Below are positions 11,875 to 63,960 of a DNA stretch of 64,000 nucleotides, in pieces. The notes beneath the pieces are model-generated. The model saw only the letters and a program-made list of their open reading frames with translations. It had not been told where the DNA came from and did no database searches. Numbering within the stretch: position 1 is the first letter of the stretch; each line of letters begins with the position of its first letter. The stretch spans positions 13,698,328 through 13,762,327 of the forward strand of contig NC_092019.1 of the NCBI RefSeq assembly GCF_042242105.1. Direction: 5' to 3'. Position numbers and translations under genes: made by a program. The stretch comes from Pempheris klunzingeri. Lineage: Eukaryota; Chordata; Actinopteri; Acropomatiformes; Pempheridae.

Positions 11875-15369
<3,495 letters not shown>

Positions 15370-17349: not shown

Positions 17350-22193
<4,844 letters not shown>

Positions 22194-22507
22194 GCAGTAA
22201 AAATTGATGAAAAAGAAATCAAGATTCTTCTTTGCAAGGCTCTCAGTCAGACAAGCTTTACTCTGTTATACAAGATGGGTTCTGATAATAGTATCCAATC
22301 TAATCTTCCATTAGCTCCTCCCCAAGAGAAAACTTTTTTTTTTAAATTTAAAGCAATGAGCCCTTGGGAACAACAGCATATTTGAAAATAGTGTCTGACA
22401 CCGTTGACACTGAACTGCCCAGTGAACTACCACTGTGAAATAAGTATTTGTAAAACTATGCAATCCATGTAAGTGAATCTCATCACGTTTCAGTTGCAGT
22501 TGTTGGT

Positions 22508-22513
22508 AATAAA
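22508..22513 (+). terminator. possible poly(A) signal of first PON gene
   Basis: AATAAA about 315 bases beyond the stop codon at 22191-22193. No closer canonical hexamer was noticed. Confidence 0.4.
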
Positions 22514-22559
22514 AATGGCCAATTTGTTTCAGGAATGTAAATAAATCAACAGATTTATG

Positions 22560-23157
22560 CTTCAACTTGAGTTTGTCTTGTGGTTTATAAATGTGTACTA
22601 AAAAAGTTGCAATCACAGAGTAAAACGATGCTTGAAAAGCAGAGCAAAACATTTTAGTACATGTTAATGTAACTTGCATAACTCAAGTCAAACATGTTGA
22701 ATCTTGTTTTCCACCCACAAGAAATCAGTTTGAAAGCTTGAAATCTGTCAAAGTCTGTCCAACTTCCTCCCCCGTATATTTTTACCCCCTCCAGTCTACA
22801 ACGCATAGACAGTACAGTACTCATAATTCACATGTTTGAGTTGTTGTTGTTCTTATGTTATTTACTTTTTATGTTTGTGTTCTTTTCCTCTTTTGGCCCA
22901 AGTCATTTTTCCAAGGTGTGCTGACATGAATTGAGTCATTAAGATTTCTACATAAAAGAAAGATGGTCCATAGCTGTTGCTGTGAGAAGTTTTCATTATA
23001 ATGCGATGCAATTTGGAGTACCCCATCCAGTTTTTTTTTTTTGGAGTACATAATGGTGTTAGTTGTATACGCAGTGATATGCACTTTGGCTCCATCTTTG
23101 GTGGAGTTTTGTAAATGCACTGGGAAAGTTTTCCTGTGTAACCTTTGACTCCTAAAC
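22560..23157. other. short spacer between the two PON genes
   Basis: About 600 bases separate the first 3' UTR from the second start codon, so the second gene's promoter must lie here. No TATA box or other motif could be assigned with confidence. A 14-base T run lies near 23030. Confidence 0.4.
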
Positions 23158-26640
<3,483 letters not shown>

Positions 26641-43456: not shown

Positions 43457-46400
43457 TGGCTACCATGACAACAGAGGCAAGTGCAGTGAGCGAGGCGGAC
43501 ACTGAGGGCAAGCAGAAGGCCAGTGGCGCCGAGCCCGAACCAGAACCGGAGAACAAGAAGAAACCACAGGCGGCAGCGTCCGAGCCGGAGGGGGAGAAGT
43601 CGAGCAAGAAGGCCCAGGAGCAGGCGTCTGAGCCTGGGCCGGCTGATGTAGCCACCTCCCCTGAGGAGGAGCAGCTCAAGCCTCGTACCCGGACCTCTGC
43701 TGGCAAAGGCCTCTCTCGCCTCTTCTCCTCTTTCCTCAAACGCCGTTCACAGTGCTCTGAGGGAGAGGGGTTTGAGGTAGAGAAGGCCAGAGAGGAAAAA
43801 GCAGACAAAGCCAGAGAGGAAAAGGCAGATAAAGCCAAAGAGGAAAAAGCTGGCAAGGCAGAAGAGGAGCAGGAGGAAGAGGTGAAAAGTGAAGAGAAGG
43901 AGGCTAAAGCAGAGGAGGAAAAATCAGAGGTAAAAGAGGTGAAAAAGACAGAAGACAAAGTAGAACAAAAAGAGGAGAAAAAGAAAGAGGAGGAAAAGGT
44001 GGAGAAGAAGGGTAGTAAAAAGAAAAAGAAAGAAGCCAAGAAGAAAGCTGAGAAAAAGGATGAGGAGAAAGTAAAAAACGACGAGGAGAATAAAGAAGAG
44101 GAAAAGGTGAAAAAGAAAGAGGAGCAACAGGAGGAGGAGAAAGCACAGGAGAGTGTAGAAAAGGAGGAGGAAAAACTAGAGAAAAAAGAAGAAAAGAAGG
44201 AGACTGCTGAGGTTAAAGACAAGGGGGCAGAAGCTACAAAGAAGGAGAGCAAAGAGGAGGAGAACATCGACAAAAAGGTAGCAAAGAAAAAAGAGAAGGA
44301 GGAAAAGATAAAGAAGAAGGAAGAGGAAAAAGCAAAGAGGAAAGCAGAGGAAGACGAAAGGGTAAAGAAGAGAGAAGAAGAGAAGGCAAAGAAGAAAGAG
44401 GAGGAAAAGGCACGAGAGGCAGAAAAAGCAAAGAAGAAAGAAGAGGAAAAGGCGAAAAAGAAAGAGGAGGAGAAACCAAAGGAGGAATCAAAAAAGAAAG
44501 AAGAGGAAAAGGAGAAAGTTGAGGTAAAGAAGAAAGAGAAGGAGGAGGATAAGACAGAAGAAAAGCAAAAGAAGGAAGAGGAAAAAGGGAAGAAAAAAGA
44601 GAAGGGAAAGAATAAAGGAAAGAAGGAGGAGAAAGAAGTGAAAGGGCCGAGTGAGGAGCAGGTGAAAGCACCAATCGCTGCTCCAGAGCCTGAGCTTAAA
44701 ACTGAGCCAGACACCGAACAGGCTCCTGATCAGCACTCCATAAGCAGCGCAGAGACGCAGGTGAGTGTCACACTGATAAGTAAATACTAAAAACTCTAGA
44801 TGTAGAATAAGATTAACAGTAACACATCTACATTTTTGGAAATTCTACTCATTTGCTTTCTTGATGAGAAGATCGATGCCGCTCTCATATCTGTCTGTTC
44901 ATAGAAGACAGCAGTCAGGAGCCAATTAGCTTAGCTTAGCACAAAGACTGGAAGCAAGGAGAAATGGGTAGCCGGAGTTTGTCCAAAGTTGAGAAAAACA
45001 ATCGTTAATTGTACGGATTATACAAGGGAGGCATGGCATGTTAATTAGTGCTGGCAGACAGATTGTGTTATCTGTTTATGCCTTCATCCAGTTTTTTTTT
45101 TTTTTATTTAAAGTTTCATTTAACCAGCTGCTGGTTGTAGCATTATATTTAACACACAGATATGAGAGTGCTATCAGTATATGATAGTGCTAAGAAAGTA
45201 AATATGCACGTTTCCTAAAACATCAAACTTTTTCCTTTTTAATGAAGGTTAAAAGATAAAGGTTCAAGAAACAGAAATCTCAAACCTTACTGCAGATAAA
45301 GGTCAAAAAAGGAGCTCTCCTGTATACAAATTCTTGCTGCAGATTGGACTTGAGTAGAGGAACACATGTTCTTTTTCCTCCTAATGAATTTTTTATGATG
45401 TGGACAGCTTGGTCAGCGAAAGTAACTGTTCTGGTTTAAGCTGAAAGCTTGGTCTAAAGCAAAAACTACCCCTGCTGGTCTGAACCACAGATAGCATGTG
45501 AAAATATTTGCTGTTTACAAAAATCTGTAGTTCTAATAATTATAGAGCTGTCATAATTAGTAATATAAAGTACATTGTGTCCTCCCGCATTCTTTTCATC
45601 TGTATTTGACACACAAATGTCTTGTGTTGACTCTACCAGCCAGCTCAAGAGGAACACAAGGAGGAAGCTGAGATAAAGAAGGAGCCTGAAGTAGTGGAAG
45701 AAGCGAAGAAGGAGGGCAAAGAGAAAAAAGAGGAAGAGCCAGCAGAAAAGAAGAAAGAAGCCAAAGGAGGGGTGAAGGCAAAGGAGGAGGCGAAGAAGGA
45801 GAAGCCTGTAAAAGAAAAGAAGACTGAGAAGACGGCAGAAGAAGCTAAAGGCTCCAAACGGCAGAAAACCATGCAGTGCAAAGTCACCTTACTGGATGAC
45901 ACTCAGTTTGAGTGTGAGCTTGATGTAAGAGACCTCTCAAATGACAGCGTCAGAGTGGCTTCACTCCTGCTGAATATCAACATGATTTAACACCCCTCTT
46001 CCTCTGTATGTCGTGTGTCTCTCTTTCTCATGTAGAAACACGCTAAAGGCCAAGAACTTTTAATGAAGGTGTGTGACCATGTCAACCTGCTGGAGAAAGA
46101 TTACTTTGGCCTCGCTAACTGGGAAACACCAACCAACAAGGTAGACTGTTTTTTCTACTCCTGCATTGTCAGTTTCCCTGCAAAGTATAACCAGATATCT
46201 ACGGGAAATCGGCTGTGAGCAGTTGGTTATTTTTTTTTTTCCCTCTTTTTTTCCGCAGACATGGTTGGAAACCACCAAAGAGATCCGGAAACAGGTTTCA
46301 GGTGCCGTATATGAGTTTACATTCAACGTGAAGTTCTACCCTCCTGATCCAGCACAGCTCACTGAAGACCTCACCAGGTAAAGGCCTCCGGTGTTAAAGG

Positions 46401-49400
46401 AATAGTTCAACATTTTGGAAAAGAAGGAGGATTTGTTGAACATGTATATTAGCTTTTTTCAACTGTAGAGCCAGGATAACTCTGAGGCATGTAATTCGAA
46501 AATGCCGTCACTACAGTAAAATCTAGAATAATCTCTCAGGAAAAACCCAGTGAAGTTTTTGTCTTCCCAAGTGAGCTCATTTTTTCCTTTCACAACTTCT
46601 TCAGGTACTTTCTGTGTCTCCAGCTGAGGAAGGACATTATGCGTGGTGTTCTTCCCTGTTCCTTTGTCACGCTGTCCCTGCTGGGCTCCTACACGGCTCA
46701 GTCAGAGCTTGGGGAGTATGACCCAGAGCTCCACGGAACAGACTATGTGAAGGATCTGAGCCTGGCGCCTGGACAGAGCAAAGAGCTGGAGGACAAGGTG
46801 ATGGAGCTGCACCGCACATACAGGTAATCAAAGGGGATGGAGAAACATAGTGATGGCAGTCTGCAGCACTTACAAGCACAGTTCAGCTGAGACAAACTGG
46901 GAAAGACCCCTCGTCTGTAACTGTTTTTAAATAGATGATTTAACAACGTCTTCAAATAATCATGACGATAAAGCATATCTTGGAAAAGACCCTTCTTATC
47001 TGTGTTTTTTCAGGTCCATGAGTCCAGCCCAAGCAGACATGCTGTTTCTGGAAAATGCCAAGAAACTCGCCATGTATGGAGTTGACCTGCACCAAGCCAA
47101 GGTGAGGTTTTGTTTAAATGATGTTACCTGTTACCTGATTAATGTTGTGTGGATTAACTGATGGTGCAGGTTTTTCGTGGAAATTGTAAAAGGCCAAATT
47201 CTATAGTTCAAGTATGTGCTGACTTTCTCTCATTTATTTCTTTCATTAAAATGCATGCTTCATTGTTTTTGCAGCGGCATGCTTATATTACATCAGTGGC
47301 ATCCAGATTTTAATTACAAAATTGATGTCAGGCACCCTTTCAGAGAAAAAGGGAGAGATTAATAACATTTCAAACTCCATGACCTCAAAATCCGTGTCCT
47401 TGTAGTGTGAGAAAGTCTGCCTCCCAGTGACTGTTTATTGTAAGTGCAGGCGTAGGGTGATGGTGTGCGCTGGGATTCAATATCATAATGCTTTCGTTCT
47501 GTTTTTGTGCATGCAGGATCTTGATGGTGTCGACATTACGCTGGGGGTTTGCTCTAGCGGCCTGATGGTCTACAAGGACAAGCTGAGGATCAATCGTTTC
47601 CCTTGGCCCAAAGTTCTTAAGATCTCTTACAAACGCAGCAGCTTCTTCATCAAAATCAGGCCATCAGAGGTAAATCTGAAATTTCTTTCTTTCTTTTACT
47701 TTTTTTTTTTTTTTTTTTAGCATATTTGAATTGGATTCTTTTTTATTATTTTTCTCATCCCAACCCCATATCCCTTCCACCAACATTTTCTCCTACATCC
47801 TACTCCCCCTATCTGGTACTTTGGCCTTTAAATTATGTGAAGAACAATTAAATACTTCTATCAAATAGATCAACTATTAAGGGTTAACTCATGGACTTGA
47901 GGAATTGTGTGCTATTATTTTGAATTTGCTACATTAGTAATTAATGTTTTTGTACATGACAAATATGTAAGCATTCAAATTTGTAGGTGCCATTTTTAAA
48001 TCATTTCATAAAAAAAGGTTTTGACTTATAATCTGTTCATTGATTTGCTCTGAGATGTTTTATGCAGCACAGCGTGGTGTTGCCGTCAACGTTGTCATTA
48101 GGTTTGACTTTTTATTTGTTTCCTCACCTACAGCAAGAGCAATATGAAAGCACAATTGGCTTCAAACTGCCAAACTACAAAGCCTCGAAGAAGCTGTGGA
48201 AAGTTTGTGTTGAAAACCATACCTTCTTCAGGTAAGAGCAGGTCATTCTCGTCTTATTCTGAATGGCACTTCCCTGCCCGATGACCGAGGTCAGGTTCCA
48301 CCTATCCCTTAGATAATAGGCTAACTGGTCTCTGCAGCTTAAGCCCTAAATTGGCTCCCTGGCAGTTAAACTACAGAGGAAAAGCTGCATACCCATGGTT
48401 TTGACCTCAGAATTAAACCGGAGAAGTCTTGTCTACTTAACAAGATAAAAGTCAAAGTTGTTGCTAATGTTGTTGCATAACAATGTTACTTTTTAGGAAT
48501 TGTGAAATCATTTGGTGTGATATATTTAATTTGAACTCCTGGTATGTGGGTGTGTCACTTTGATAAAACTGATAAATGTGTAATAAATTGTGAGTGGATG
48601 AAAGCTAAATTAATGTTTTTTTTTTGCCCTCAGGGTTCCAACAGTAGAGCCCCCTGCATCACGTCGCTTCCTCGTCTTGGGCTCTAAATTCCGGTACAGT
48701 GGGCGTACTCAGGCCCAGACCCGCCAGGCAAGTTCTATGATCGACCGCCCAGCTCCTCTCTTCACACGCTCTGCGAGCAAGAGGCTGTCCCGTAATCTAG
48801 ATGGAGGTATGTGCACGTGTGTGAATCTGTGTTGGAATCACTGCATCACGTTTGTGTCTTGTAACAAAAGCGCAGGTTGGATAAGCTACTCTCTGACGTT
48901 TTTTCACTCTTGCAGCTGGAGATGAAACTCTCCAGTTCCTGCAGCGACTCTCAGCATCAACCAGATCTGAGGTTGATGATTGGTCGCTGATGCTAACATC
49001 CGACAAACCCCCGCCTTCTCCTGAATTCCCAGGTACCAGGACGTGTGTGGAGCTGCACCAGTGCTTTTTGGCAATCTTTGCAGCATTTATTTTATAGTCT
49101 CTCACAAACAGCCTTATTCCTTCATTTAACATACTTATCCGTTCTGGCTCATTTGCTTTCATGCCGATAACCGTTTGAAAAGATTGTCAGCCAGCTGCAC
49201 CACAGATAGTTAACTTGTCAGAGCACTGATCTACTCTGACATGTGGGTAATGTCACCCACCTTTTCCTTTCCCTGGCATGATCCCAGGCCATATTTAGTC
49301 TCTACGAACTAAGAAAAAGACTGTCCTCACACTCTTAACTACGCACTGGCATTTCCAGTCTTGAGACTGCTGTTCCTTGTGTTTTGGCATTTTCAGAAGT

Positions 49401-52400
49401 TGCTGCTTGATGTGTGATGCACAACGCTTTGCTTGTAGCTTGCACCTTTATACTCAGCATCTTAACTCATCACTCATCATTGCTTCAGTGTTTCACTAAG
49501 ACAGGATGAAGCTGAAACTTTAAACTCTGAAAAGTAATTGCCCTTTTCACTGTATTAATTCTCGCTTCTTTTAAAGAATAGGGGGCATCTTTCATTCAGC
49601 TTTGTACTAACTCCGCTTACTGGACTCACCATTGTCTGGTACAAATGCTTGGCATCTGGCTTTGTTCAAAAACACGCTTGAAGCACTGTGAAGCATTCAC
49701 AGTGGCCGTCATCTCGCCAGCAGAACCATTACATAACTGCCATCCCCGCGTCATCTCTTCACAGTCAGAGGAGAGTCTGAGCAGACTTTCATTCAGTCCT
49801 GGGAGGAGGGGCAGTCTGTTCACACAGTCACAGTGACTTGGCAGGACACTAGGACTGGGCAGACTGGCTCTCAAACCATTACCCAGACAGGCAGTCAGCC
49901 GTGGCAGGATCTGGCATCTGATGAGCAACAGCAGAGGAGAAAGGAAGACAAGTGGTCGGCTCTGTTCCATCGATTTCCTCCTTTTCCCTTTGTGCCACCT
50001 TTCGATTTTGTGAAACAGTCAGGTACTTGCACTTTTAAAGCCTGCCAGTAGTTATTCAGCAGTTTGCCACAAAGAAATCTGAATCCATCATAGCTTAATC
50101 TTTCACTTTGGCTTGGATTTTAAAGAACATGCATCTAAATTGTGTTTTCTTGCCACCAACATGCACTTTTATGAATTGCACTGCATTAACAAAAATCGCA
50201 CCTTTATTCCGCCCCCTTGTTTTCAGCTATTTGCACTTTGAGATTTTGTGTGTTTTTGCTCATGTGGTATGAAATTCAATATTATCCCTCTGATGTTGTC
50301 AGCTGAGCTCAGCTTGGCAAAAAGAAGTTCTTTGGACAGGCTATTGCAACCAGCACTGACACAGCAAGATGATTGGTTCCTTTACTTCGACCGAATGTTG
50401 AGCCTTTCCTCAGTTGAGCGTGCTGATACACCACGTGAGTTTCTTTGTGTGGCTTTATGTGGAAATATGACCTGTATTTTCAGAATTTGAACAAAAATAC
50501 AAAAGCCCCTTAACCTCTTTATTTATTTTCATGCTTCACTGTTTTCTCCTTTACTCCTCTCAGTCTCTCCCCGAGCTCAGTTCCAGCTCCAGGAGAAGGA
50601 TGAGCAGGGCATGTATGTGGCAGAGCAGGAACTGACCAGTGAGGAGGTCATAGAGAGGCTACAGGAAACTGTGATCCTGGTAGACAAGCTGAGAGAGGGG
50701 GATGTTTTAGAAAAGAGGCTGAGGGAAGTGAGGGATTTAGAGGAGAGGCTCCAAGAAGTGGATGAGATGGCAGCGAGACTTCAGGTGGTAATAGAAGAGG
50801 AATTGGGCAAGGAAGAGGTAGATAAGTTGAAAGAGGAAGAGGTGGATTTAGAGGAGGGGGAACGAATAAAAGCTGAAGGTATAATAGACACGGTGTTGAA
50901 GAAATCAGTAAGGATAATGGAGGCAAAAGAGGATGAAGTGGATGAACTGGAAGAAGAGATAAAGCGGGTGTTTTTAAAAGGCTTGTTGCCTGAAGAGGAA
51001 GAGGCCGAGGGGACAGACGCGAGTCCATTAGATGATAGCTTGAGAGGGAAGCTACACCAGATAGAAAGGGAATGGCAAGACATGGTGGAGGAGAGGATGT
51101 CAGATGTGACCAGCACCACTTCCGTTGTAGCATACCAGAAGGTGGAGCGTAGGACTAAGAAGAAAGTGACTATTGTTGAAGAGAGAGGGCAGCAGCAGGA
51201 AGAAATGGAAGATGTGCAGGTACGGGTTGGTGTAATGTCAGAGGAGAGGCTAGAAAAAGCAGGGACGTGGCGTAAGACAGAAATACTGGAGAGAAAAGTC
51301 ACAGAGAGGCTTCAGGCTGAGGATCCAGCTCAGGTGGCAGATAAGGACGTCTGGTTCATACTTTTTGACCGCCCTCCATACAAAGCTGTTTTCAAACCAC
51401 CAGGTATAGTATATCATTGTGCAAACAGCTTTAGAACTCCACAAATCTCTCTAATATTATAACATATTATAAAGTTCCTTCTCGAATACTTTTTTGTGTA
51501 CTATTTCCATTAACAATTGTCACAACAGCACATGTGTCAAAGTGTCAGCTGAGTCCTCAAAGCCCCATTTAGATTCAATAGAAAGCTGAAGGTAATGGAA
51601 CAATTAACAGGCTTGGTTCTAGATCATTGGCTGTCCTTCTCTTCCTCTTATGAATATAATTTGATATTTATGAAAGGTCTGTCTATGTATAGTTCTGGGT
51701 TATCTTCAGGTGGATGCAGTGTGGTGAAAGAAATGGCAGCATAGTAGACAGAAACGATGTGGTAGATTGTAGATGGTGCGAAAAGGGGTCAAAAATATGA
51801 ATAAGAAGGGCTCAGAAACAACCAGAGCCTACGTTTTCTGGTGTATCCAGGAATATTTTGAAAGTCTTGATTTTCAGTCATCAGAGTAGAGTTAAAACAG
51901 ACTGACCTACATAGAACATTCCTCTTAAACACAGCCAATGACTTCATGTGTCTGTGAACACCGATATTAACATATTAACCAACTATTTTCTTTTTTGTTC
52001 TTTTCCTGAAATTGTACTTGTCAGCTGTTACAATGAGGTTTTGGAGCTGCTTGCTCAAAGATACTGTGTCTTGACTGTCATCATTAGTTACTCCTGTGGA
52101 ACGTGCTCAAGTGGATGAAGGCGGGTATGCCACCTCAAAGACTGAGATTACAACAGTTGAGGAGAAAACAGAGATTATAGTAGAAGAGAGAAAAATAAGA
52201 GAAGAGGAAGTGTGGAGTTTACCAGAGATCCCACCACCGCAGACGACCACAGAACGAGGTGATGACTGGTATTTGTTGCTGGATGTCATTCCCAGAGAAA
52301 CATCATATGTACCACCAGGTATTGCTGAAATCCCTGAGTGTTGCTTTTCAAAACAATCTTGGCTCTCTTGTGCTTTATTTTGTGCTTGCTATTATAAAGG

Positions 52401-55400
52401 AAGTGTGTGTTACTGCCTGTGTGCTAAAAGACTTTCCCCTGACTTTACTTTTATCAGTTACCTTGAAGGAAAGAGACCCGGTGGATGCAGAAAGTTTTGT
52501 CTCTGTGGTTGGAACTGCAGTCGATGAGATTAGAGAAGTGGTAGCTGAAGAGAGAAAGATAATAGAAGAGGCACCGAGACTTCTTCAAGAAATCCCTCAA
52601 GTGACAGACAGAGATGATGACTGGTTTGTGCTGCTGGAAGTTGCCCCCAGAGAAACGATATATGTACCACCAGGTACTGCTAAAGCCCCCTGTGCCAAAA
52701 CAATTGTGGCTCTCTCATGCTTTATTTCGTCCTCACTAATATACATTGAAGCCTTTATCACTGCCTTTGCTAAAAGACTCTCTCCTGACTTTACTCATAT
52801 CAGTTACCGTGAAAGGAAGAGACCCGATGGACGCAGAAAGTTTTGTCTCTGTGGTTGGAACTGCAGTCGATGAGGAGATTAGAGAAGTGGTAGCTGAAGA
52901 GAGAAAGATAATAGAAGAGGCGCCGAGACTTCTTCAAGAAATCCCTCAAGTGACAGACAGAGATGATGACTGGCTTGTGTTGCTGGATGTTGCTCCCAGA
53001 GAAACATCATATGTGCCGCCAGGTATTGCCAAAATTCCCCGTACTGTCTCACAGCTTTATCAGAGCATTCAATTATCCTGAGTTTTGCAGACGTTCTTAT
53101 CCTTAAATCCCACATACCGTCCATAGTGTCTGAGGATTTTTATCTCTCTTGTCTTAGTTGCTGTTGCACGACGTGTTGAAGTGTCTCCAGAAGAACACGT
53201 CTCTCAGGTTGAAATAGCAGCAGTTGAGCGAAAAAGAGCGGAAGTCGTGGTAGAAGATGCAGAAGTACTGAGTGTAAAGCCGGTAGTAGCTCTGCCACAG
53301 GCTGTGAGAGAGATAGAAGATGACTGGTTTGTGCTGCTTGATGTTCCCTCTAGAGAACCATCATTTGTGCCACCAGGTATTATCGACTCGCCCTCCAGTG
53401 GTTACAAGATTATTTTGTCCTACCTGGTTTAAGTGTCTTACAATACTTGTTCGTTCTGTTTGTCATTAGTCACCATGGCAGACTACGTTCAGGTTTATCC
53501 TGAAGAAAGAGTTTCTACTGTGGCTGAAACAATAACAGTAGAGTCCAGGAAGGAGGTTGTAATTCAAGAGACTGTGGCGGACAAGATGCTTCCCAAGCAA
53601 ATTATTCCAGAGCAGCCAGTCAGAGAAAGAGATGATGACTGGTTTGTTCTACTGGATGTCGTTCCCAGAGAAACTGCCTATGTGCCTCCAGGTACCCACA
53701 GCCTTCAGATGTCTTTCTTCACTCATATTATCACACCAAAGAAGAACTTACACGTAAACTGGGTGTCAACTAAATTATGCAAAGATGATTTCCTAAATAA
53801 GATATAAGGTCTCTGTTAGATTCTTCACTTTTGGCTGAAGCTTAAGTACAAATTCTTTTTTGTTTTCAGTTTCTGTGGCAGCAATGAGCCAAATTTATCC
53901 AAGTGTTCGACCTCAAATTGAAGTGATGAGCATAGAGCGGGCATTGCAGGAGGTTGATCTTGACCAGATTAGACTGCGGCCTTCCCAGCCACTGCAGGAA
54001 AGAGATGATGACTGGTTTGTGCTGTTTGATGCTATGCGTGAAGAAGCAGCCGTACTGCCATCAGGTATTGAGTTAATATGCAGCCACTGAATTCACTCTG
54101 GAACATTAATTTTCAGACATTTGTTTGGTGGATATACCAATGTTGCTCAGCTTCTTTAACTCTAAAACTGTCTGTATGTGCCTCAGTTACTCCTGTTGAG
54201 ATTATTCCGGATATGAGGAGGACGCTTGAGGTTGAGGCGAAAATGACAGAGACTACAACATGGAAGAAGGAGATAATTGGTGTGGACAGCAGGCAAGATG
54301 AAACACATCTGTCTAAAATTAGTCAAATTGCACCACCATCAGAGAGGGAAGGAGGAGATGATTGGTTTGTCCTTTTCGACATCATCCACGAAAAGCCTGC
54401 TGTCATACCACCAGGTACCTTCTATTGCCAAAGGGTCTGCATACAAGTGGTGGCCAGTAAGTAATATTAGATATACTTGCTGTAGATTTATTTACCCTTA
54501 TTTTTCTGTGTTAGTTGCCGTGGTTGGGCGTATTGTGGATGTGGTGGCAGCCATTGAACCAAAACCACAATTTATCATGGAAGATGTGAAGCCATCTGTG
54601 AAGCTGGTGGAGATCAAACCACCACATCCAAGACAGGTGGATGATGACTGGTTTGGGCTGTTTGATGTTGCAGCAAAAGCACCAGGTATTCAGCTGTTTT
54701 TACGTGTGGCTGTTACTGTGAGATGGAATAAGACAGAACAGCATGGTGTCTGTGTGTGCCCTACAGTTTGAAATGTCTATTTCATATTTCACCTTGTTCG
54801 CAATGTGTTTAAGTGGAATCGTGATCTGACTGAGAAGGCTTTGTGTGTATCCTACATTAGTGGCTGTGGACGAACGCATCCGTATGCATCCAGCTAAAGA
54901 GTTTGCAGCTATAGAGCAAAGAGCACAGCAGAGAATTACTATAGTGGAGGAGATGTGGCAGCGAGAGAAGGTGGTGCAGCAGAAGCCAGCAGTGAGAGAG
55001 GTGGAAGATGATTGGTTTATTCTTCTGGATGTGGCCACTAAGAAATCAGGTATAATCAAAATGATTTATTCCTGCTATATACACAGACATTTCTATTTGA
55101 GTTTGTTTTATACAATTAGCACAATTGTTTTTTTGATGTTTGATCTACCCTCCTAATGTGCACCTACTGTGTCTCAAGGCCGTCATTTGATTTACCTGGT
55201 TGTATTTTATTTGTATTAGCCACTGTCCCTGAGCACGTCCAGTTCCCACGAGAGGTGAGAGCTCCAACTGCTGTGGCCAAAACAAGGATTGCTATTTCTG
55301 AGATGAGACCACGTTTTGAGGAACGGATCCTGGAGGAAAGACGTCCTCTCACACACACGCATGTCAATGATGATTGGTTTGTTCTACTAGATGTTGGCCT

Positions 55401-58400
55401 CAAAGAGTCAGGTATCTTTTATCCATTTGGGTGTGATGTTTTGCAGGTGAAGAGCTCACACCTGGCCACGCTTTCTTTGCTCCATGAAACGCTTTTTAAC
55501 ACTTGCAGCCTTTTTAAAGATACAGTTACTCCATCATTCACGGACCTCTGACTGTGCTATGTTTCGCAGATTGAAGAAATGACGCTTTCCTAATCTCAGC
55601 ATTTCACCGGTTCATCCACATTGAGCTTTGTGGCTCCTTTCAGGCTAACATCATCTGCCTTTGCATCCATTATCGGATCGTAACAAGAACTAATCCATGC
55701 TTCTGCTCTCATTCCACTTTGTGGACATTCGCTTCTGGCCCACCTCAGTTTCCGACGAGTGCTTGTCCATTTTAAAGAGACTGAACAAAGCGTACTAGGT
55801 ACAGTATACCCCTGCAGTGTGTGCACTGATGACATAGAGGCTTTAGACTGTAAGTACGACGTGGCTGTTTTGCGTAGATGGACTATTGTTTCTTGCTGCA
55901 TTTATATGTGTATATCTGTTTCAGTTGATTGATTTTTATCATGCTAAATGTGCATACGATCTTATCCCTCTATAAACCATCGTGCTAATACACATTTCCT
56001 TTAATTCACGTTTCCATTTTGTCTGTATTTTGTTTAGCAGTGAGCACACAGAAGGGCGCTCGTCCTGTCAGTGCTCCGGTCTTCTCCCAGGCTGCGCTGG
56101 CAGAGGCAGGGATCCCCATGGCTCTTTTCGATCAGCCCCAGACCTCCACTCCAATCAAGGCCGGTCGCCTGGAGGAAAGAAAGCTGGAGGTCACCGTAGA
56201 AGCTGTGGAGCCCTCAAAACTTGAGGCTGAGGCTGGGGCCAAGGTATTCAATTTCTCAGACTACTGTTTTTACATGTTTGTGATGCATTTTTAGCAAATC
56301 TCTAAAAGTTACTCTGTAGGAAAATTGTAGCATCTTGTATGTGTTTAAGCCATATGTGCCTTACCGAACAGCTGGTGCCAGTGAAAGATCAACAGATTAT
56401 TTATGCTGCGTCCTCGTACTGATTGCCTGGGTGTTTTCATTGTAGATAACGATGACTATGAAATATTAAGAACTCTTTTAATTCAGTTGCTTCATAGTCT
56501 TATGCTAAAGTAGTGAGCAGAGCTTGCTCTCTGTGTCTGAGTGTGAACTGTGTCTCTCTTGCTGCTGTAGCCAGCAGTGTGGAGGGACCAGAGAGAAGTA
56601 GACTCTTCACTGATATCCACCATCAATGGGGACATCCAGGTTAGTGTCAGACACTGGCCTCTTGCATGATGCCCCTCAGAAGACTTGTTTCAGCTGTGGC
56701 TGAGATCTGAGTGTTAAAGCCAACAAGCAGAGGATGCTAACATGTGTCCCTCTCTCCTCCCTGGGGTAGCGCGAGTCTGAGGCGGTGAGCACGGAGGTGG
56801 TGCGAATGCGAAAGGTCAGATTCCTAGCCTTGTGTGCGTCTCTGTAGCCATTTCTCCACCTCCATTCTGATGATTTCGAGCTTCTCATCCTAAAGACTAA
56901 TTTCACCCTCTTCTCATGTTGTGCTTCCATACGGCTAGGTCTTAAATGAAATCCACACCAGGTTCGATGCACATACAGTATATTTTACGAGGTAGAAATG
57001 TGAGAATAGATGGACTATGTAAACAGTAACTGCTGTTAATAGATTAATATAACTTCAATATGAAGAGACTTTGCTTGCCTCTGAATATTTTTTACACAAC
57101 TATTTAAAAGTTTAAAGGCATTCATTTCTTCTCATTGCTTGCTGTTGTAAATCCTGGAATGCACACATGCATGATTGTACTTTAAATGCGCACTAAAAAG
57201 TGGCATGACAACTGGTGTTTTATCACATTTCTGACACTCTACCATTTATTTTATTTCCTCATTATCAAAATAGAAATCTTCAGTGTGTCTTTTCTTTGTC
57301 AGTATGTTGCAGTTTGGCCCCTGTGGTCACTTAGCCACAAACTATTTTGCATGAAGACTTCTCACACCACTCTTCATCTGTTGTGCTATAAATGTAGTGA
57401 ATATTGTAGCATGCATGTCCAATGTGTGGCAGTATAGTGCCAGCACACAGGGAAACTGAAACAAACCCACACTCTTTTGTTCTTGTCATTTTCACAGAAA
57501 AGAGCTAAGAAAATTGAGCGTGACTCAATTTATATCAGACATAGCCTTTTAATGTTGGAGGTTTGTATCCCTTCTGGAGATGTTGATCTCTATCTGTATT
57601 TTCTTGCTCTATGGCACAACTTCTGCTGTGTATAATATCACGCTTGCATGTGGCATGATTCACACTTTTTGCATCAGCATAAGTGATTGGCTGTAGATTA
57701 CATTATAAGTGTGTGTGTGTGTGGCAATGTAACTCTAATCCAGTTGTTTCAGGAGATTGCTGTTGAGCTCACAACAAATAAGAAGTGGGTTATGGTCAGG
57801 GTGCTTACATTTGCATTGGTATTCGCAAACTTGTTAAAGATGCTGCACTAGCATAGTTAAACTGTCCCTAGTGATCAGCCCTGTGATGTGGTTGATAAGG
57901 TTTAACATAATCAGGGAACTTTTCTACTCCTTCATTACTACTACTACTACTTCATTCTTCAAGTCAGGATTCACAAGCAGCTCCATTTTAATGTTTTTTC
58001 CAGATCATCAGTATTCTCCTGTTCCTGCTTTTTGCTCTTTCTACCGCCATCTCATTTTCTAACTTGCCAGTAATCCGTTGCACTTTCTCAGCAGCTATGC
58101 AAATGAAGTCCTTTGACCATGGAAATGAAAATCAAGATAATTATACGTCTTTGCTGAAAGGAATGGCGTTTGGAGAAACACTTATCATTAAGTTGCTCTT
58201 TAGCACCACAATAAGTCATGATTAGATTAAAAACTTCATTGACTGTCTGCAATATGTTTAATTGAATGGGTGTCAATATCTTGAAGTTCTGAATAAAGAT
58301 CAACTTGGTGCTAAATGTTGCCAAATGCTGCTGCTGCTGCTGCTTTTGTTGGTTCGTGTTAGAAGAACAGGTTTCCATTTGCAATGAGGCTTCATCTTTG

Positions 58401-61400
58401 ACAAGGTGTACCACATCTGCCATCATCACCTCTTCTGCTCTTTTATTTGCAGCCTGTGTTCACAACGTGTTTCACTGCAAGCCTAATGCTATGAAATAAA
58501 TCCTTAATGCTGGGCTCTATAGTTCATAGCTCTTACCCATCTAAACTCCAATTAACAATCAACTTTGATGAATCACGGCACAGAGTCCTCTCACTTAACC
58601 TTTCCTTTAGAAACCAAAGTCTGGTCTGATGAATCAACTGCTAGACTTGATTATAATTTTGAAAAGAAAAATCTGTCATAGTATGATCATTTAGATCAAC
58701 AGCCCCCTCTAATCTATATTCCTTTAGGAATACCAATTAACTCAGCTTCTGCTTGTTTATTTAATCTGCAACAAGTCAATAAAAACTGTACAGAAATGGC
58801 AGAAAGCAATATAATCTGACTTTTCTTCTTTCCCTCTGTCCCTACTATGAACATATCCTTCATCTTCCCTTTCCCTCTCCATCCCATTTCCACTATCTGT
58901 CTTCACTTCTTGCATGATCCTCTTGCTTCTGACAAATTTCCTGGCGCCTTCTTCCCTGCGCCCTTCAACCTCCTCCACACCGTCGCCCCCCTCTCTTCTT
59001 TTCTCCGTATAGGAGTTCGATAAGCCTCAGGAGGACTTGCTCAGGCATCATGCCAGCATCAGCGAGCTGAAGAGGAACTTCATGGAATCCGTCCCGGATC
59101 CCAGGCCCAGTGAGTGGGACAAGCGCCTGTCCACACACTCCCCGTTCCGCACCCTGGGTATCAATGGCCAGCCTCTACCCAGTGCAGATGGGGTAAGTCT
59201 CCAACAGAAACAACTCTCCACCAAAGCCTTTTTTTTGTTGATTTAACCCAAGTCTGTCAATTCAGGAATTGGTGCAAATTTAAATTGAATTAGAAAATTA
59301 CTCATGAAGGCCAACAATTCCTGAATGGACTTTATTAAAGCTGTTTTTATACATAAATCATCACATTTGTTTTCATGTATCTGCGTTTTTAGATGAAATT
59401 TGATGTACTTAAAAACAGCATACTAGTGTGGCACACTAATGCAAGCAGTGTGCATGGATTTGTAATGGAACAGAAGAACCTGAAATTCTTCCTAATGACT
59501 TGTGTTTGAGCAATTTTGAACATTTAATTGCTGCATTCGATGGGATTACGAATATATTCAAATGAAAGAAACCGATAGAAGAGGGATCAGGCTCTTCCAG
59601 TTGTCATTCCTGGTTCTCTTTCAGTGTAATGGATTGTTTGTGCATGTGCAGACCCATTCAAAGCCATGGCATGTGGTATGCAGCACATGCATGTGTATGA
59701 AGAATGCAGTTGGACTTGTTGAATAGGGTCTGTACTTCTGTCACTTAAGGCTGATGTGGCCGAGGCATCTTTGGGACATGTTGTCGGCTCTCTGAGAAGT
59801 CACTTTGGTTCACCTTAGCCGCTTTGGATGCCTCTGAACTCTGACATGTCCGTATTGCATGACTGACAGACCTGCTGCTGAAAGTTTACCGCATGACTCA
59901 GAGTTGACCCTTGCGTGAAATTTTGCACGTTCTGACACCGAGCAGAATTGACCTTTCCCCTTTCCTCTGTCCCTCCTTCATTGATTTCTTTCTCCTTTTT
60001 TTTTGTAATACTTTTTACTTTGCACACTTTCTTTTCACACTGCTTTTACCTTTTTTTAGCTGCTGCTTTCTGAAAGCCATAGTTGTTTTTCCATGAAGAG
60101 AGAAGGCCTCATTCACACTAAACTAATGTAATTACTGGTAACTAATGCCATTACTCTTATTGATAGTTACGTTGCAGTTTAAAAGATTACTCGAAAGCTA
60201 TTCTGTGAAGTAGAAAAACAACCCTAATCTAGTTGAGCTGCTGTCACGTGGATTAACAAGTGTAATCTACTGAGGTTCATTTTGCATGCCTTTTGGGTGA
60301 GAAATTTACTCAACTGCAGTATAAGTGTTTAGACACAAAGCATTCCTACAGTTGAAGATAAATGCCTCCAAGTACATCATATTGTCAGGATGCATTAGAG
60401 CTGCACTGAAATCAACGCAAAGCCACACTGACAGCAGAGAGTCTGTGGTGATGAGATGAATCAGGACAAATGTACAAAATGTTTAACGTGAGCAGAGCAA
60501 TCTGACACCGGTGAGATGTACTCTGCCTAGAGGAGTGGACACAAACGGTCTGTGCCCAATTTGACAAGCCATTAACCTCCAGTTTTGTACAGACTAAAGA
60601 CCAAGGCCCTTAACTGTGAGAAGAGAAAACATTGATATTAACTGCACAAAATGTTGGTTTGCAAGTAGAAGCAGCAGAATTGGTCCTGCCGGTGCTAATG
60701 GACTGAAATGACATGGCTAATTAACAATAAGCTGCTTTTGGGTGTCCATATACCAGCTATAGGCTCTAAGCTACTGATATAATATGAACCGCTACTTGGT
60801 CCATATCAGAGGTGTATAAAACGCATCTCTTTTCAAAGAAGTGTGAATGACTTTCTGTCTTGTCTAAAAAAAAAGTAAATTGTTGGACATGGAAAAAATG
60901 CATGTTTAGATAAAGTGCGAGTTATATTTCCATGCTCCTGGACGACAGAAATTACTATCAAAATCACTGATCTGTGTTCACCTGAAGGCTTTTGCTATGC
61001 TATTACACCTGAATTTAATATTTTCAGTTATCAGTTATTGTGCAACTCTGGCTTTTACAAGTTCAGTTCATTGTCGGTCATTGCAAACATTTCAAAATTC
61101 CTCCCTCTCATCTCTCCTCCCTCCTCCTCCTCCTCCTCCTATTCCTCCTCCTCCTCCCCCCACCCTCAGTTTGTCATCCGCCTCCCACGCGGCCCCCTGC
61201 TAGACTTCTACTCCAAACGCAGCTGAGGGGCCGTCTCGACCCTGCGGAAATCCCACACAGGTGTGAGTGTGACCCGTGGAGACCGCACCTAGTCCCATCT
61301 ACCCATCAACCTCTTGCTTTCTCCTCTTCTTCTCCTCCTCCTCCTTCCTTCGCCTCCTCTTCAGCGTCACTATAGCATTCTTCATCTCTCATCCTCTGCT

Positions 61401-63960
61401 CCACTTGAGAAGCTGCCCTTTTTTTCTGGCGTCTGTGGAACAAGACTTTCGTTCCTTCTGTTTCCCACTGCGGCACAGTTGACCTGGTTTCTCCAGCCAG
61501 AAACAGACCTGTTCTCTAAAGACTGATTAGGACTGGAAATGACAATCAACCCACTACTCCTTTGCATTTTCTGTGATGTCTTTTGGACTTTAAATCAATT
61601 ACCTAACTGACTTTTTTCTGGAGGTTTTTAATGCCAGACCATGTCACTTTGAATCTGCTTTTATACACATTTTGAGGTACATTTATATTGGTGGTTGTTG
61701 ATGGATGTTGCTGATCACTGTGATGTGATTTTAGGATATAGAAACTCTTTTCCTGAACCCACGTGAAGTAAGCACTAGAAAACGACAGTCTTGTTCCTTT
61801 CGAAATTTATCAGTATCCTTTGTCACAGTATAGTATTTCCTTTGATGAGAGACCTTGAGGCAGCTTTGTTGTAATACATATTAATCTCTTTGTCCTTCAC
61901 CAGTATTTGGCAAGGCGGTATGTAGCAACTGCAAGAGATTTCCTCGTTGCATGACTTTTTGACAATCAACTTTGACCAAAGAATAAAAGGCATTCCATAT
62001 ACAGTTCATATGATTGTTTGGTCCTTTCAAAAGCCCTGGTTTTTGTTTTAATATTTCAGATTATTCATTATTCACTTGTTTTTAGTTGATGACAACAGTA
62101 GTGTGTCATGTCATTTTGCTATCCCTCCATATTGAAAAAAGCAGAATATTCAAGCAAAAAGTTCATTGTAATGCATACTAAATTATAGATTAAAATAAAA
62201 TATAGAGCAGCTTGTTTACAGTATCCATCTTATTTGGTCGCCTACTGTAGCATGTGTCATGTGGAAATCAGTAAGGAAAGGGGTACATTGTGACCATGAC
62301 GGGATATACATGGTCTGCATTGATGTTTTGTTAAGCTGTGTTGTCATGTAAAGTCTAATATAAATCAAATGAAATCCATCATCTTTCTACAGAGCTGTAG
62401 TACCTCATAAAATGGATACTGTACTGTACATGCCATACATGTAGTTGCATATTGTTTTAACATGCATGCATTATAATCTATGTAAATATGAATTAGTATA
62501 CAGAACATGTCAGTAGGAAACCCATGATCACATAGTGACTGTGTTGTGTCTCTTTTAGAGTGTGTGCATTAGTCTCCTTTGCAATGGTTCAGAGACAAAG
62601 ACTGCACACGAGGAAACCAGCAGCAATTTGGGCTTTTCAGGCATACCAAGTCCCACTGTGAGCCACAAGAGTGAGCCTGATATTGTCGAAGCCCACGCTG
62701 CCCCAGTTGAGGAAGAGTCATGTGATCAGGAAGAGGTTGTAGTTTTTGAGACCTCCTTGGTGCCCATCGTAGAGGTGGAGATGGCGCAGCTGCCTCCCTC
62801 CCTCGACCTCTGCTGTAGAGCTTTAGAGGAGATCCTGGAGGAAGACGTTTCTTATCCTGATGTGTCGGAGAGCTCTGGGAGGATAGTTGGATCTTCCCCA
62901 GCTTCCTATTTCAGGAGCGATGGTCCACAGGTCATACGCTGCTTCCAGGTAGCCTCCTGAGCCCTTCAGGGTGATGCTGATTCTGTCTCTGCTTGGCCTC
63001 TGTATGATTTCAGGGTTGCCACGCTTGCTCACTCCTTTGCAGCACTATTGCAAATTCAATTCTTGTGAGTCCGTAAAGGAAGTATGTAAGTGTTGTGTGA
63101 ATTCTGCTCATCATAGTCAAATTAAGCTCTGGTTGCTGCAGAGGTGTTACACAGTGGTGCGCAAAGCTCTCAACTATGGTGATGGGTCATTGTAACACTA
63201 GCACATTCTTCTCTGCTACAAGACGCACTGACTTTACTTTCATCATCTTTCCAACCCACTTATGGCTTGATATTTTCTGTTTCTTTTTTAGTAGTTGGTG
63301 GTGGAAGTAACAAGGTGATTCTGTTTTATTTCTTCAAACTTTATAATCGAAACAATTTTGGTGAGAAGAAAGGGCTGTTGGGGTGAAAATCAATCAACAC
63401 AGGCAATGGCTTTGGACGAAATGCATGTTGTGAAACACATTGGTTGCTGTGAGGTGCAAAGTGTCTGGATGAACAGCCACCCACGGGGCTATGCTCCCAT
63501 CCACAGCCCCCTCTGGTGCAGACTCAGACAGTCACCATCACAGCTGTCTCCAACTCCTTACCCAGTGGCATCTCCACCACAGAGGTCCCTGTCGTCCCGA
63601 CCAAGACCTTCATCTATGAGTCTTCAAAGGTAGGGGCCCCAGCACCTGCTCAGCCCAGATCTGTCTCGGCTTTAGCCAAACACTTTGCATGGAGGAGATG
63701 TCAGCACTGTAGAGCAAGCAGGTCTGGGAAGACCAGGCCTGGGGCTCCAGAATGAGCATGAGGCAGCACTGCTCCCTCCCTGGCTGAGGATCAGGGTCAC
63801 ATTATCAAAAAATGATTATTCACTTTTTGGTCTTTTTTCTCAGGTGACCGATGACGGGACAGACGACAAAGACAGCACAACTGTGTCTAGCTCCAAGACC
63901 GTTTCTGCAGAGACCACCAGTGGCACCACAGTTACCACCACTACCACTCACATCTCAAAG
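43457..63960 (+). CDS. epb41: epb41: protein 4.1R, all exons seen (3' end outside window)
   Basis: Membrane-skeleton protein that links spectrin-actin to transmembrane proteins. Exons: 43457-44760 (ATG 43465), 45640-45924, FERM exons 46036-46140, 46259-46377, 46605-46823, 47014-47101, 47517-47669 and 48134-48231, FERM-adjacent 48634-48806, fourteen module exons 48916-55411, then 56041-56243, 56571-56639, 56770-56814, 57498-57560, 59013-59192, 63507-63629 and 63844-63960. All join in frame to 2,255 codons by the window edge. Identity as 4.1R, not 4.1N/B/G, comes from [63 protein letters not shown] and [11 protein letters not shown]. Residues typical of the C-terminal domain begin at 63844, and the rest lies beyond 63960. 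The acidic/basic insert in the first exon and the module array are unlike the human protein. Real transcripts surely use subsets of exons. Confidence 0.93.
43777..44640 (+). other. epb41: Lys/Glu-rich single-alpha-helix region of epb41
   Basis: Residues about 105-392 of the long isoform are almost entirely Lys, Glu and Ala, in imperfect repeats such as KAREEKAD and KKKEEEKAK. The regular spacing of opposite charges three or four residues apart is that of a stable single alpha helix rather than a coiled coil, because hydrophobic a/d positions are lacking. Human 4.1R has only a short acidic headpiece at this place. The purine-rich DNA yields a long antisense open frame that should be ignored. 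A second K/E-rich stretch continues in the next exon (45660-45830). Confidence 0.8.
44828..45236. mobile_element. fold-back MITE-like element, copy 2
   Basis: The left arm (near 44828-44940, with TTTGCTTTCTTGATGAGAAG) matches the reverse complement of the right arm (45117-45236). The element shares its arms with the copy at 25699-26140. It is non-coding and intronic, in the first epb41 intron seen here. No target-site duplication could be fixed by eye. Confidence 0.65.
45871..45873 (+). other. epb41: conserved internal start codon (AUG-2 equivalent) of epb41
   Basis: The exon encodes [12 protein letters not shown], aligned with human RNMHCKVSLLDD. The human Met is the start of the 80-kDa erythroid form, produced when the exon holding the first AUG is skipped. 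The Met is at the same place here, immediately before the FERM domain. Initiation from it removes the whole Lys/Glu-rich headpiece. Confidence 0.65.
45874..48806 (+). other. epb41: FERM and FERM-adjacent domain exons of epb41
   Basis: The F1 lobe starts at QCKVTLLDD and includes [13 protein letters not shown]2 holds [24 protein letters not shown] and [11 protein letters not shown]3 holds ILGV-like [33 protein letters not shown] and [10 protein letters not shown]. The FERM-adjacent part is [18 protein letters not shown], whose Ser is the likely regulatory phosphosite. No residue typical of the domain is missing. This part binds glycophorin C, band 3 and p55 in the human protein. Confidence 0.93.
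46394..46430 (+). repeat. left-arm fragment of the fold-back element family
   Basis: TTAAAGGAATAGTTCAACAT followed by TTTGGAAAAG matches the outer arm of the fold-back elements at 25699 and 44828. Only the terminal part is present, in an epb41 intron. Confidence 0.45.
50564..51403 (+). other. epb41: 280-codon giant module exon of epb41
   Basis: This exon is several times longer than its neighbours. The long N-terminal part is highly charged and heptad-like (many [21 protein letters not shown] stretches), suggesting a helical rod or coiled coil. It ends in [20 protein letters not shown], the array's terminal motif. Frame and phase agree with the other modules, so it is an expanded member rather than a separate gene. 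Confidence 0.8.
52319..53022 (+). repeat. recent intron-plus-exon tandem duplication in the epb41 array
   Basis: Unit A is 52319-52673 and unit B is 52674-53022. The two exons differ, by my count, at about 15 bases and one 3-base indel (an extra GAG in B) over 216-219 bases. Their preceding introns (139 and 130 bases) are also alignable, including a shared TGCTAAAAGACT...CTGACTTTACT stretch just before the acceptor. The whole unit was therefore copied, as by unequal crossing-over. Confidence 0.88.
56038..56243 (+). other. epb41: epb41 exon after the array, with tandem (NAGNAG) acceptor
   Basis: The acceptor reads TTTAGCAG, so splicing can occur after TTTAG (exon from 56038) or after CAG (exon from 56041). 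Both keep phase 1 and differ by one Ala. The exon encodes (A)[17 protein letters not shown] and onward, resembling human ADRSPRPTSAPAITQG, and changes the phase from 1 to 0. Confidence 0.75.
57498..57560 (+). other. epb41: epb41 63-base exon equivalent to human exon 16
   Basis: Twenty-one codons, [20 protein letters not shown] plus E, flanked by TTTCACAG and GTTTGT. The human exon 16 product (KKRERLDGENIYIRHSNLML plus E) has the same length and is the developmentally switched peptide needed for tight spectrin-actin binding. The fish version keeps IYIRHS-LMLE but has a changed N-terminal half. Confidence 0.88.
59013..59192 (+). other. epb41: epb41 exon 17-equivalent of the spectrin-actin-binding domain
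   Basis: Sixty codons, phase 0 at both ends, containing [27 protein letters not shown] and [14 protein letters not shown]. They are nearly identical to human 4.1R, and this exon is the strongest single proof of orthology. Confidence 0.93.
61170..61999 (+). other. epb41: apparent alternative last exon and 3' UTR of epb41
   Basis: A 60-base pyrimidine tract ends in CACCCTCAG at 61169. The exon opens in phase 0, compatible with the preceding exon (59192), and reads [18 protein letters not shown] then a TGA at 61224-61226. AATAAA occurs at 61982-61987 and again at 62194-62199. Using this exon would end the protein right after the spectrin-actin-binding domain, without the C-terminal domain. The evidence is the splice site, the frame and the poly(A) signals; I do not recognise the 18-residue tail. 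Confidence 0.55.
62559..62948 (+). other. epb41: possible 130-codon cassette exon of epb41 before the C-terminal domain
   Basis: Bounded by CTCTTTTAG at 62558 and a CAG|GTAGCC donor at 62949, it stays open in phase 0 at both ends. The product starts [15 protein letters not shown] and is acidic, with [18 protein letters not shown] different donor (CAG|GTCATA at 62931) is also possible. Mammalian 4.1R has alternative exons called 17A and 17B at this position, the larger one enriched in muscle, and this may be their counterpart. Confidence 0.55.
63507..63960 (+). other. epb41: first exons of the epb41 C-terminal domain region
   Basis: 63507-63629 encodes [29 protein letters not shown], and 63844-63960 encodes a Thr/Ser-rich stretch ending TTTTTHISK. 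Both are phase 0 and parallel human PPLVKTQTVTI and TKDVPIVHTETKTITYE, and the ITSETPSSTTTTQITK region. The conserved remainder (TVKGGISETRIEKRIVITGD in human) should follow to the right of the window. Confidence 0.88.

Follow-up and report, generated by a model that had tools for sequence, protein, structure and literature searches.

A protein 4.1R (epb41) gene of the fish Pempheris klunzingeri carries an array of fourteen additional exons, which we describe here. The gene lies in a stretch of 64,000 nucleotides (nt) of assembly GCF_042242105.1 (NC_092019.1:13,698,328-13,762,327, forward strand), which we call the window and whose positions are used as coordinates throughout. The FERM exons of the gene occupy, with their introns, 46256..48231 (+) and match the Pfam models FERM_M and FERM_C. 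When one of them was compared with the PDB, the top matches were structures of protein 4.1 or 4.1R (2rq1, 1gg3, and 3qij), with 4.1B behind. Next come the FERM-adjacent (FA) exon at 48634..48806 (+; Pfam FA, 7.8e-21), the array, the exon at 56041..56243 (+), and the spectrin-actin-binding (SAB) exon at 59013..59222 (+; Pfam SAB, 5.6e-26). Just beyond the end of the window, an exon at L040:47-127 matches positions 53-79 of the 107 in the Pfam profile 4_1_CTD (5.1e-10, 39.8 bits with a cut-off of 25). FERM, FA, SAB, and C-terminal domain (CTD) exons are all found by Pfam in one gene, in that order, and together with the PDB matches they bear out the statement of an earlier note on this DNA that the host of the array is the 4.1R gene.

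A search of the assembly (646 Mb in 439 contigs) with a FERM exon as query returned related 4.1 loci on C16, C11, C15, C2, C21, C18, and C7, the closest being that on C16, with 73% identity over the FERM exon. We take the C16 locus to be the second 4.1R copy and name it, by similarity, epb41a, the gene in the window then being epb41b. The array gene would thus be one of two 4.1R copies in the genome of this fish.

The fourteen exons, m1-m14, span 48916-55411 on the forward strand, between the FA exon and the exon at 56041. Each of them is open, is bounded by AG and GT, is in phase 1 at both ends, and has a length divisible by 3, and together they amount to 3429 nt, or 1143 codons. The array thus matches in count, edges, phases, and sum what had been claimed for it (fourteen symmetric phase-1 exons, 1,143 codons). 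The first four exons vary widely in size: m1 (48916-49032) has 39 codons, m2 (49765-50022) 86, m3 (50303-50434) 44, and m4 (50564-51403) 280. The remainder are more uniform, with 77 codons in m5 (52088-52318), 72 in m6 (52458-52673), 73 in m7 (52804-53022), 73 in m8 (53158-53376), 74 in m9 (53470-53691), 65 in m10 (53870-54064), 76 in m11 (54187-54414), 57 in m12 (54515-54685), 63 in m13 (54861-55049), and 64 in m14 (55220-55411). We note that m4, at about four times the usual module size, represents a second kind of insertion, inside a single module.

Because each exon is open and runs from phase 1 to phase 1, every subset of the array, including none of it, keeps the reading frame. The phase-1 donor of the FA exon (GAG/GTATGT) opens onto the array, and the acceptor at 56041 is identical in phase, so that a splice from 48806 to 56041 would give a protein without the array. 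Indeed, all 120 of the exon-exon junctions that we tested, from the FA exon or any of m1-m14 to any later exon up to that at 56041, were free of a stop in the junction codon. As for the donor sites themselves, 13 of the 14 in the array had neither +4A nor +5G, and the same held for 7 of 33 conserved FERM and FA donors from the gene and its paralogues, a comparison that counts duplicated donors as independent and from which no probability is therefore drawn. The sole array donor with both bases is that of m3 (GTGAGT). Weak-type donors such as these are compatible with optional inclusion of the exons, inclusion itself being inferred.

What the exons have in common is a motif centered on a tryptophan, which is of the type acidic-acidic-Trp-aromatic-hydrophobic-Leu-Leu/Phe-Asp and which can be written as the pattern GAYGAYTGGTTYVTNYTNYTNGAY. 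The tryptophan, an aspartate at -2, and leucine or phenylalanine at +4 are present in all 14 modules; Asp-1 and Leu+3 are each present in 12, Asp+5 in 11, and Phe+1 in 10. The sequence ahead of the motif varies from module to module, whereas the motif is conserved. That a Trp-centered motif ends each module, as the earlier note had proposed, was upheld (14/14), although the particular forms assigned to it had to be narrowed. The exact string DDWF(V/I/L)L(L/F)D, said to end almost all of the exons, occurs in only six (m8, m9, m10, m11, m13, and m14), and it is DDW (12/14) and tryptophan with Asp-2 (14/14) that are general. Likewise, the continuation (R)E..(Y/F)VPPG, ascribed to many of them, is represented by E..(Y/F)VPP after the motif in five of the 14 (m5-m9). 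A final PP tail is present in m5-m9 and m11 and absent from m12-m14 (54515-55411, +), which suggests a sub-lineage of modules.

The conserved residues are spelled by different codons, and so it is the amino acids of the motif, not the DNA, that have been kept. Asp-1 is encoded in both possible ways (GAT in 5 modules and GAC in 7) and Leu+3 in four (CTG in 5, CTT in 3, TTG in 2, and CTA in 2). At the level of the DNA, the DDW codons (GAYGAYTGG) occur 12 times in the array span, all on the forward strand, compared with 0.1 expected under a Markov model of that span, and not once on either strand in the remaining 57.3 kb of the window. At 11 of these 12 sites, a pyrimidine-rich phase-1 acceptor and an AG/GT phase-1 donor flank one open frame; at the other, in m3, the donor reads CAC/GTGAGT. 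Chance or an artefact of reading is ruled out by this concentration of sites within the array.

In the acidic motifs that bind Arp2/3, acids continue after the tryptophan. The letters DDW, found in 12 of the 14 modules, are common to those motifs and to the array, and one could imagine that DDW acts here in the manner of the cortactin/HS1 acidic motif, bringing Arp2/3 to the membrane skeleton. Cortactin, whose Arp2/3-binding motif contains DDW, likewise has skippable in-frame repeat exons (PMC554100). In none of the 14 modules, however, is there an acidic residue at any position from +1 to +4; these positions hold hydrophobic residues instead, mostly F-V-L-L/F, and Arp2/3 docking, which would leave the conserved hydrophobic run unexplained, is in our estimation very improbable.

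To ask how the modules are related, we built a motif profile from m4-m14, omitting in each case the module under test, and compared the score of that module with those of 2800 shuffled exons. Twelve of the 14 (m3-m14) outscored every shuffle, m4 narrowly so (7.8, with a maximum of 7.3 among the shuffles). Kinship was borderline for m2, whose version of the motif is EDKWSALF...FVPPF and whose score was matched or beaten by 25 of the 2800 shuffles, and was not demonstrable for m1, which was matched or beaten by 1689 and shares just position, phase, and DDW with the others. The twelve modules m3 (QDDWFLYFD) to m14 descend from a common ancestor. Moreover, m6 is a recent duplicate of m7: the pair differs by 8.0 synonymous and 7.0 nonsynonymous changes, corresponding to a synonymous rate (dS) of 0.18, a nonsynonymous rate (dN) of 0.044, and a dN/dS ratio of 0.25, and the intron after m5 can be aligned with that after m6 at 102 of 129 positions. 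The kinship of m3-m14 and the recency of the m6/m7 duplication confirm the view that the array grew by exon duplication. In a tree of 11 modules (m3 and m5-m14), only m6+m7 was resolved (97/99); the order of duplication was not resolved by the tree.

The modules are also constrained at the level of their amino acids. Among the 45 pairs that can be formed from m5-m14, dS could be estimated for 35, and all 35 had a dN/dS below 1 (range 0.21-0.75); the other 10 pairs are saturated and many of the 35 are near saturation, so that the ratios should be read loosely, m6/m7 being unaffected. These values bear on the idea that the array is unexpressed, or is a decaying cluster of duplicates in a dispensable ohnologue. 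The weak-type donors would suit such decay, as would an apparently shortened C-terminal domain (described below), and the classical function could be left to epb41a. Against this stand 14 pieces of sequence, open, in frame, and bounded by splice sites, that total 3429 nt, a dN/dS below 1 in every pair for which dS could be estimated, and FERM, FA, and SAB exons that look intact, and we regard decay as the least probable of the explanations considered here.

We searched for modules elsewhere in the genome in stretches that extended 30 kb downstream from the FERM match at six of the paralogous loci and 20 kb at the locus on C7, with a further 10 kb upstream for C16. In tblastn searches with all 14 modules, no match better than E = 0.05 was obtained in the downstream stretches of the seven related 4.1 loci, epb41a included; the FA exon was located in five of these seven stretches, the absence of modules being less complete for the other two (C21 and C7). 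Hidden Markov models (HMMs) of the motif and of the module were also run over 10,324 six-frame open reading frames, and strong matches were confined to the array in the window, with none elsewhere better than E = 0.7. The motif HMM was built from all 14 modules and so recovers them by construction, and the module HMM was built from m5-m14. In epb41a, about 7 kb separate the FA exon from the counterpart of the 56041 exon, itself a weak match (39% over 54 residues, E 0.006), and no module was found in this interval. Finally, in a protein search of the whole genome with a 55-residue query, in which the best 10 candidates were scored, all 10 matches fell in the array; further modules may occur in unrelated genes.

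In 220,000 bases of other genome stretches (L020-L041), GAYGAYTGG occurred four times and only once with usable in-frame phase-1 splice sites. This lone RPLEDDWLIL, in an open frame, lies on C2 (L031), downstream of an epb41l1-like gene, at approximately 22.8 kb from the FERM exon and about 6 kb beyond the last C-terminal-domain match of that gene. It probably belongs to another gene.

The distribution of the modules among the 4.1 loci also bears on the possibility of intramolecular docking, in which the motif would add a strand to, or sit in a groove of, the FERM domain of its own protein and so regulate the binding of FERM to its membrane partners. The array directly follows the FERM and FA exons, and a hydrophobic, extended-looking motif would be suited to strand addition. 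Yet in this genome the motif was not found in the stretches downstream of the FERM matches at the seven related loci, and one FERM domain has no need of twelve or more copies; this possibility we consider improbable.

Nor did the modules resemble sequences in databases. Pfam returned nothing better than E = 0.16 for ten of the array exons, the other four had no match within a limit of E = 1, and a profile of the motif gave no matches at E up to 10 in the PDB, by which a known domain or repeat is ruled out. Relatives were not found for m7 in bacterial and archaeal genomes or for m9 in IMG/VR, as expected because the gene is an animal gene. To our knowledge, the human 4.1R sequence has no such repeats. 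In the open-access literature, no paper with DDWFVLLD was found, none that links EPB41 to GABARAP through an LC3-interacting region was found either, and nothing on the array was listed, the main zebrafish 4.1R papers lying outside that coverage.

What kind of polypeptide would the array encode? The 1143 residues contain not a single cysteine, are acidic overall, and would add about 126 kDa (at 110.5 Da per residue). AlphaFold2, when given m7 with nine other modules as the alignment, returned a model with a mean predicted local distance difference test score (pLDDT) of 56 and a predicted template modelling score (pTM) of 0.18, in which a single low-confidence helix covers residues 11-42 and the motif lies outside any element; m7 is thus predicted to be disordered. 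For m4, folded alone with no alignment, long helices ahead of the motif were predicted with a mean pLDDT of 55. In the absence of a confident fold for either, we rejected a folded module domain. We read each module as a flexible, V/E-rich linker, predicted to be disordered, that ends in a short linear motif.

Titin PEVK provides a precedent for a part of this picture, as it consists of many symmetric exons that encode a P/E/V-rich disordered spring and are chosen by splicing. We know of no conserved Trp motif at the ends of PEVK exons. Conceivably, the array is purely a length spacer, or entropic spring, in which the Trp motif has just survived from exon duplication or reflects a constraint from splice signals. 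The composition of the modules (P+E+V+R of 0.44 in m5-m14 versus 0.22 in five FERM exons), the lack of cysteine, the in-frame exons, and the want of a confident fold for m7 are all in keeping with a spacer. A spacer does not account, however, for conservation that falls on the motif and not on the linker, with tryptophan in 14 of 14 modules and Leu+3 kept through four codons, and because the tryptophan sits 11-22 codons ahead of the exon end, donor signals offer no explanation. The array is like PEVK in its symmetric exons and its richness in P, E, and V but differs in its conserved Trp motif, and we judge a pure spacer to be unlikely.

The reading that we favor, with a probability of roughly one half (about 0.52), is that the array is a splice-tunable, multivalent docking tether in the linker between the FERM and SAB domains of one epb41 copy. 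According to this proposal, a symmetric phase-1 exon would have been duplicated repeatedly inside the FERM-to-SAB linker. The exons that are included would form a long tether, without cysteine and probably disordered, that links the membrane-binding FERM domain to the spectrin-actin-binding domain over as many as 1143 residues. The number of exons included would set both the length of the tether and how many similar docking sites it offers to a single partner. The motif would, in this proposal, be what binds the partner.

The Atg8 family (GABARAP/LC3) is the first candidate for a partner of such a tether because acid-W-x-x-L is the core of an LC3-interacting region (LIR). The LIR core has the form aromatic-x-x-L/I/V and is preceded, at -1 to -3, by an acidic residue or Ser/Thr; among the aromatics, tryptophan is the most favorable (PMC7615515). 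A loose form of this pattern (W-x-x-L/I/V with E, D, S, or T among the three residues before the Trp) is present in 12 of the 14 modules, m1 and m3 being the misses, whereas shuffling the modules around the tryptophan gives a mean of 0.17. The modules are related and are not independent events, and so the LIR fit is a lead only. The WLII of TP53INP2 shows that hydrophobic residues can occupy +1 and +2 of an LIR. The FIP200-binding pattern, which is closely related to the LIR (PMC7615515), fits 10 of the 14 modules. We do not file the motif as an LIR: the match to Atg8 ligands is a lead at the level of pattern, and that the Atg8 family is the partner seems to us doubtful.

Several considerations weigh against a docking tether and against its candidate partner. 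That the array exons are used, and are optional, is inferred from the sequence; the donors to which this appeals are related by duplication; m1 and m2 may lie outside the module family; and dS is saturated in 10 of the 45 pairs and close to saturation in many more. The profile of the motif, as noted above, matched nothing in the PDB. With respect to Atg8, the 12 LIR-type matches amount, among related modules, to about one draw at a chance of approximately 0.17. The GABARAP-type core, (W/F)-(V/I)-X-V, which marks a subtype and has known exceptions (PMC7615515), occurs in none of the 14 modules, and the xLIR pattern in one. Furthermore, conservation at positions +1, +4, and +5 of the motif is close to that at +3, which is beyond what an LIR core demands.

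A docking tether in 4.1R would have partial counterparts in other proteins of the membrane skeleton. In giant ankyrins, which are membrane-skeleton adaptors enlarged by optional exon sequence, one strong acid-Trp LIR in a single giant exon binds Atg8; the array differs in having a duplicated series of motifs instead of one, and Atg8 binding is for the array only putative. Optional in-frame exons are common in the protein 4.1 family, and the gene in the window agrees with 4.1R/EPB41, 4.1G, 4.1N, and 4.1B in its order of FERM, FA, SAB, and CTD exons but differs in the fourteen extra exons between the FA exon and the next, none of which was found in the fetched stretches of the seven other 4.1 loci. 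A further likeness is to cortactin/HS1, which are proteins of actin-skeleton type with tandem repeats from in-frame exons, some of those of cortactin being skipped (PMC554100). The cortactin repeats are F-actin-binding units of 37 residues, and five of them are encoded by 111-nt exons, whereas the units of m5-m14 are of 57-77 residues and are for the most part a variable linker, with the short motif at the C-terminal end. The suggestion that the array represents a new design for a membrane-skeleton linker must be softened accordingly, tandem in-frame skippable repeat exons such as the 111-nt exons of cortactin being already known (PMC554100); the array in 4.1R stands as a variant of that design.

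The prototype isoforms of 4.1R are of 80 and 135 kDa (PMC3166722). If the array is spliced in, some 126 kDa of repeated motif between the membrane-binding and the spectrin-actin-binding parts would change how the control of length and valency in 4.1R is viewed. One could go further and imagine that 4.1R is switched by splicing from its classical linker to a giant scaffold that bears up to a dozen or more Trp motifs, with an Atg8-family protein or another single partner drawn to the spectrin-actin membrane skeleton and dosed by the choice of exons, a picture that we hold to be distinctly unlikely as a whole. The fish itself provides a natural experiment in epb41a, where no module was found in the roughly 7 kb at the equivalent place, and the motif is short enough for a partner to be captured with one peptide.

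Other parts of the gene have unusual features as well. The headpiece exon, which from its first ATG extends over 43465..44757 (+; 431 codons) and lies outside the array, fits the human 4.1R headpiece at both ends and is greatly enlarged between these conserved ends by a lysine/glutamate tandem-repeat stretch, with 27.6% K and 29.0% E. The enlarged headpiece and the array would together make the product of full inclusion very large. At the other end of the protein, the CTD is apparently shortened: after ...DSDIDQDK, the final exon, identified by eye within L040:47-650, encodes EKAGGASSL and then a stop. In a tblastn search of the window plus 10 kb with the human 4.1R sequence as query, no match was obtained past human residue 833, about 30 residues being missing. 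An exon at 63513-63629 had no Pfam match. Between the SAB and CTD exons, an open acidic stretch at 62559-62957 (+; 133 codons), also with no Pfam match, is possibly a further optional exon. Upstream of the gene, we noted by eye open reading frames that we take to be casein kinase 2 alpha-like (12981-13352, +), paraoxonase-like (20740-24335, +), and two-pore potassium channel-like (26990-27736, -).

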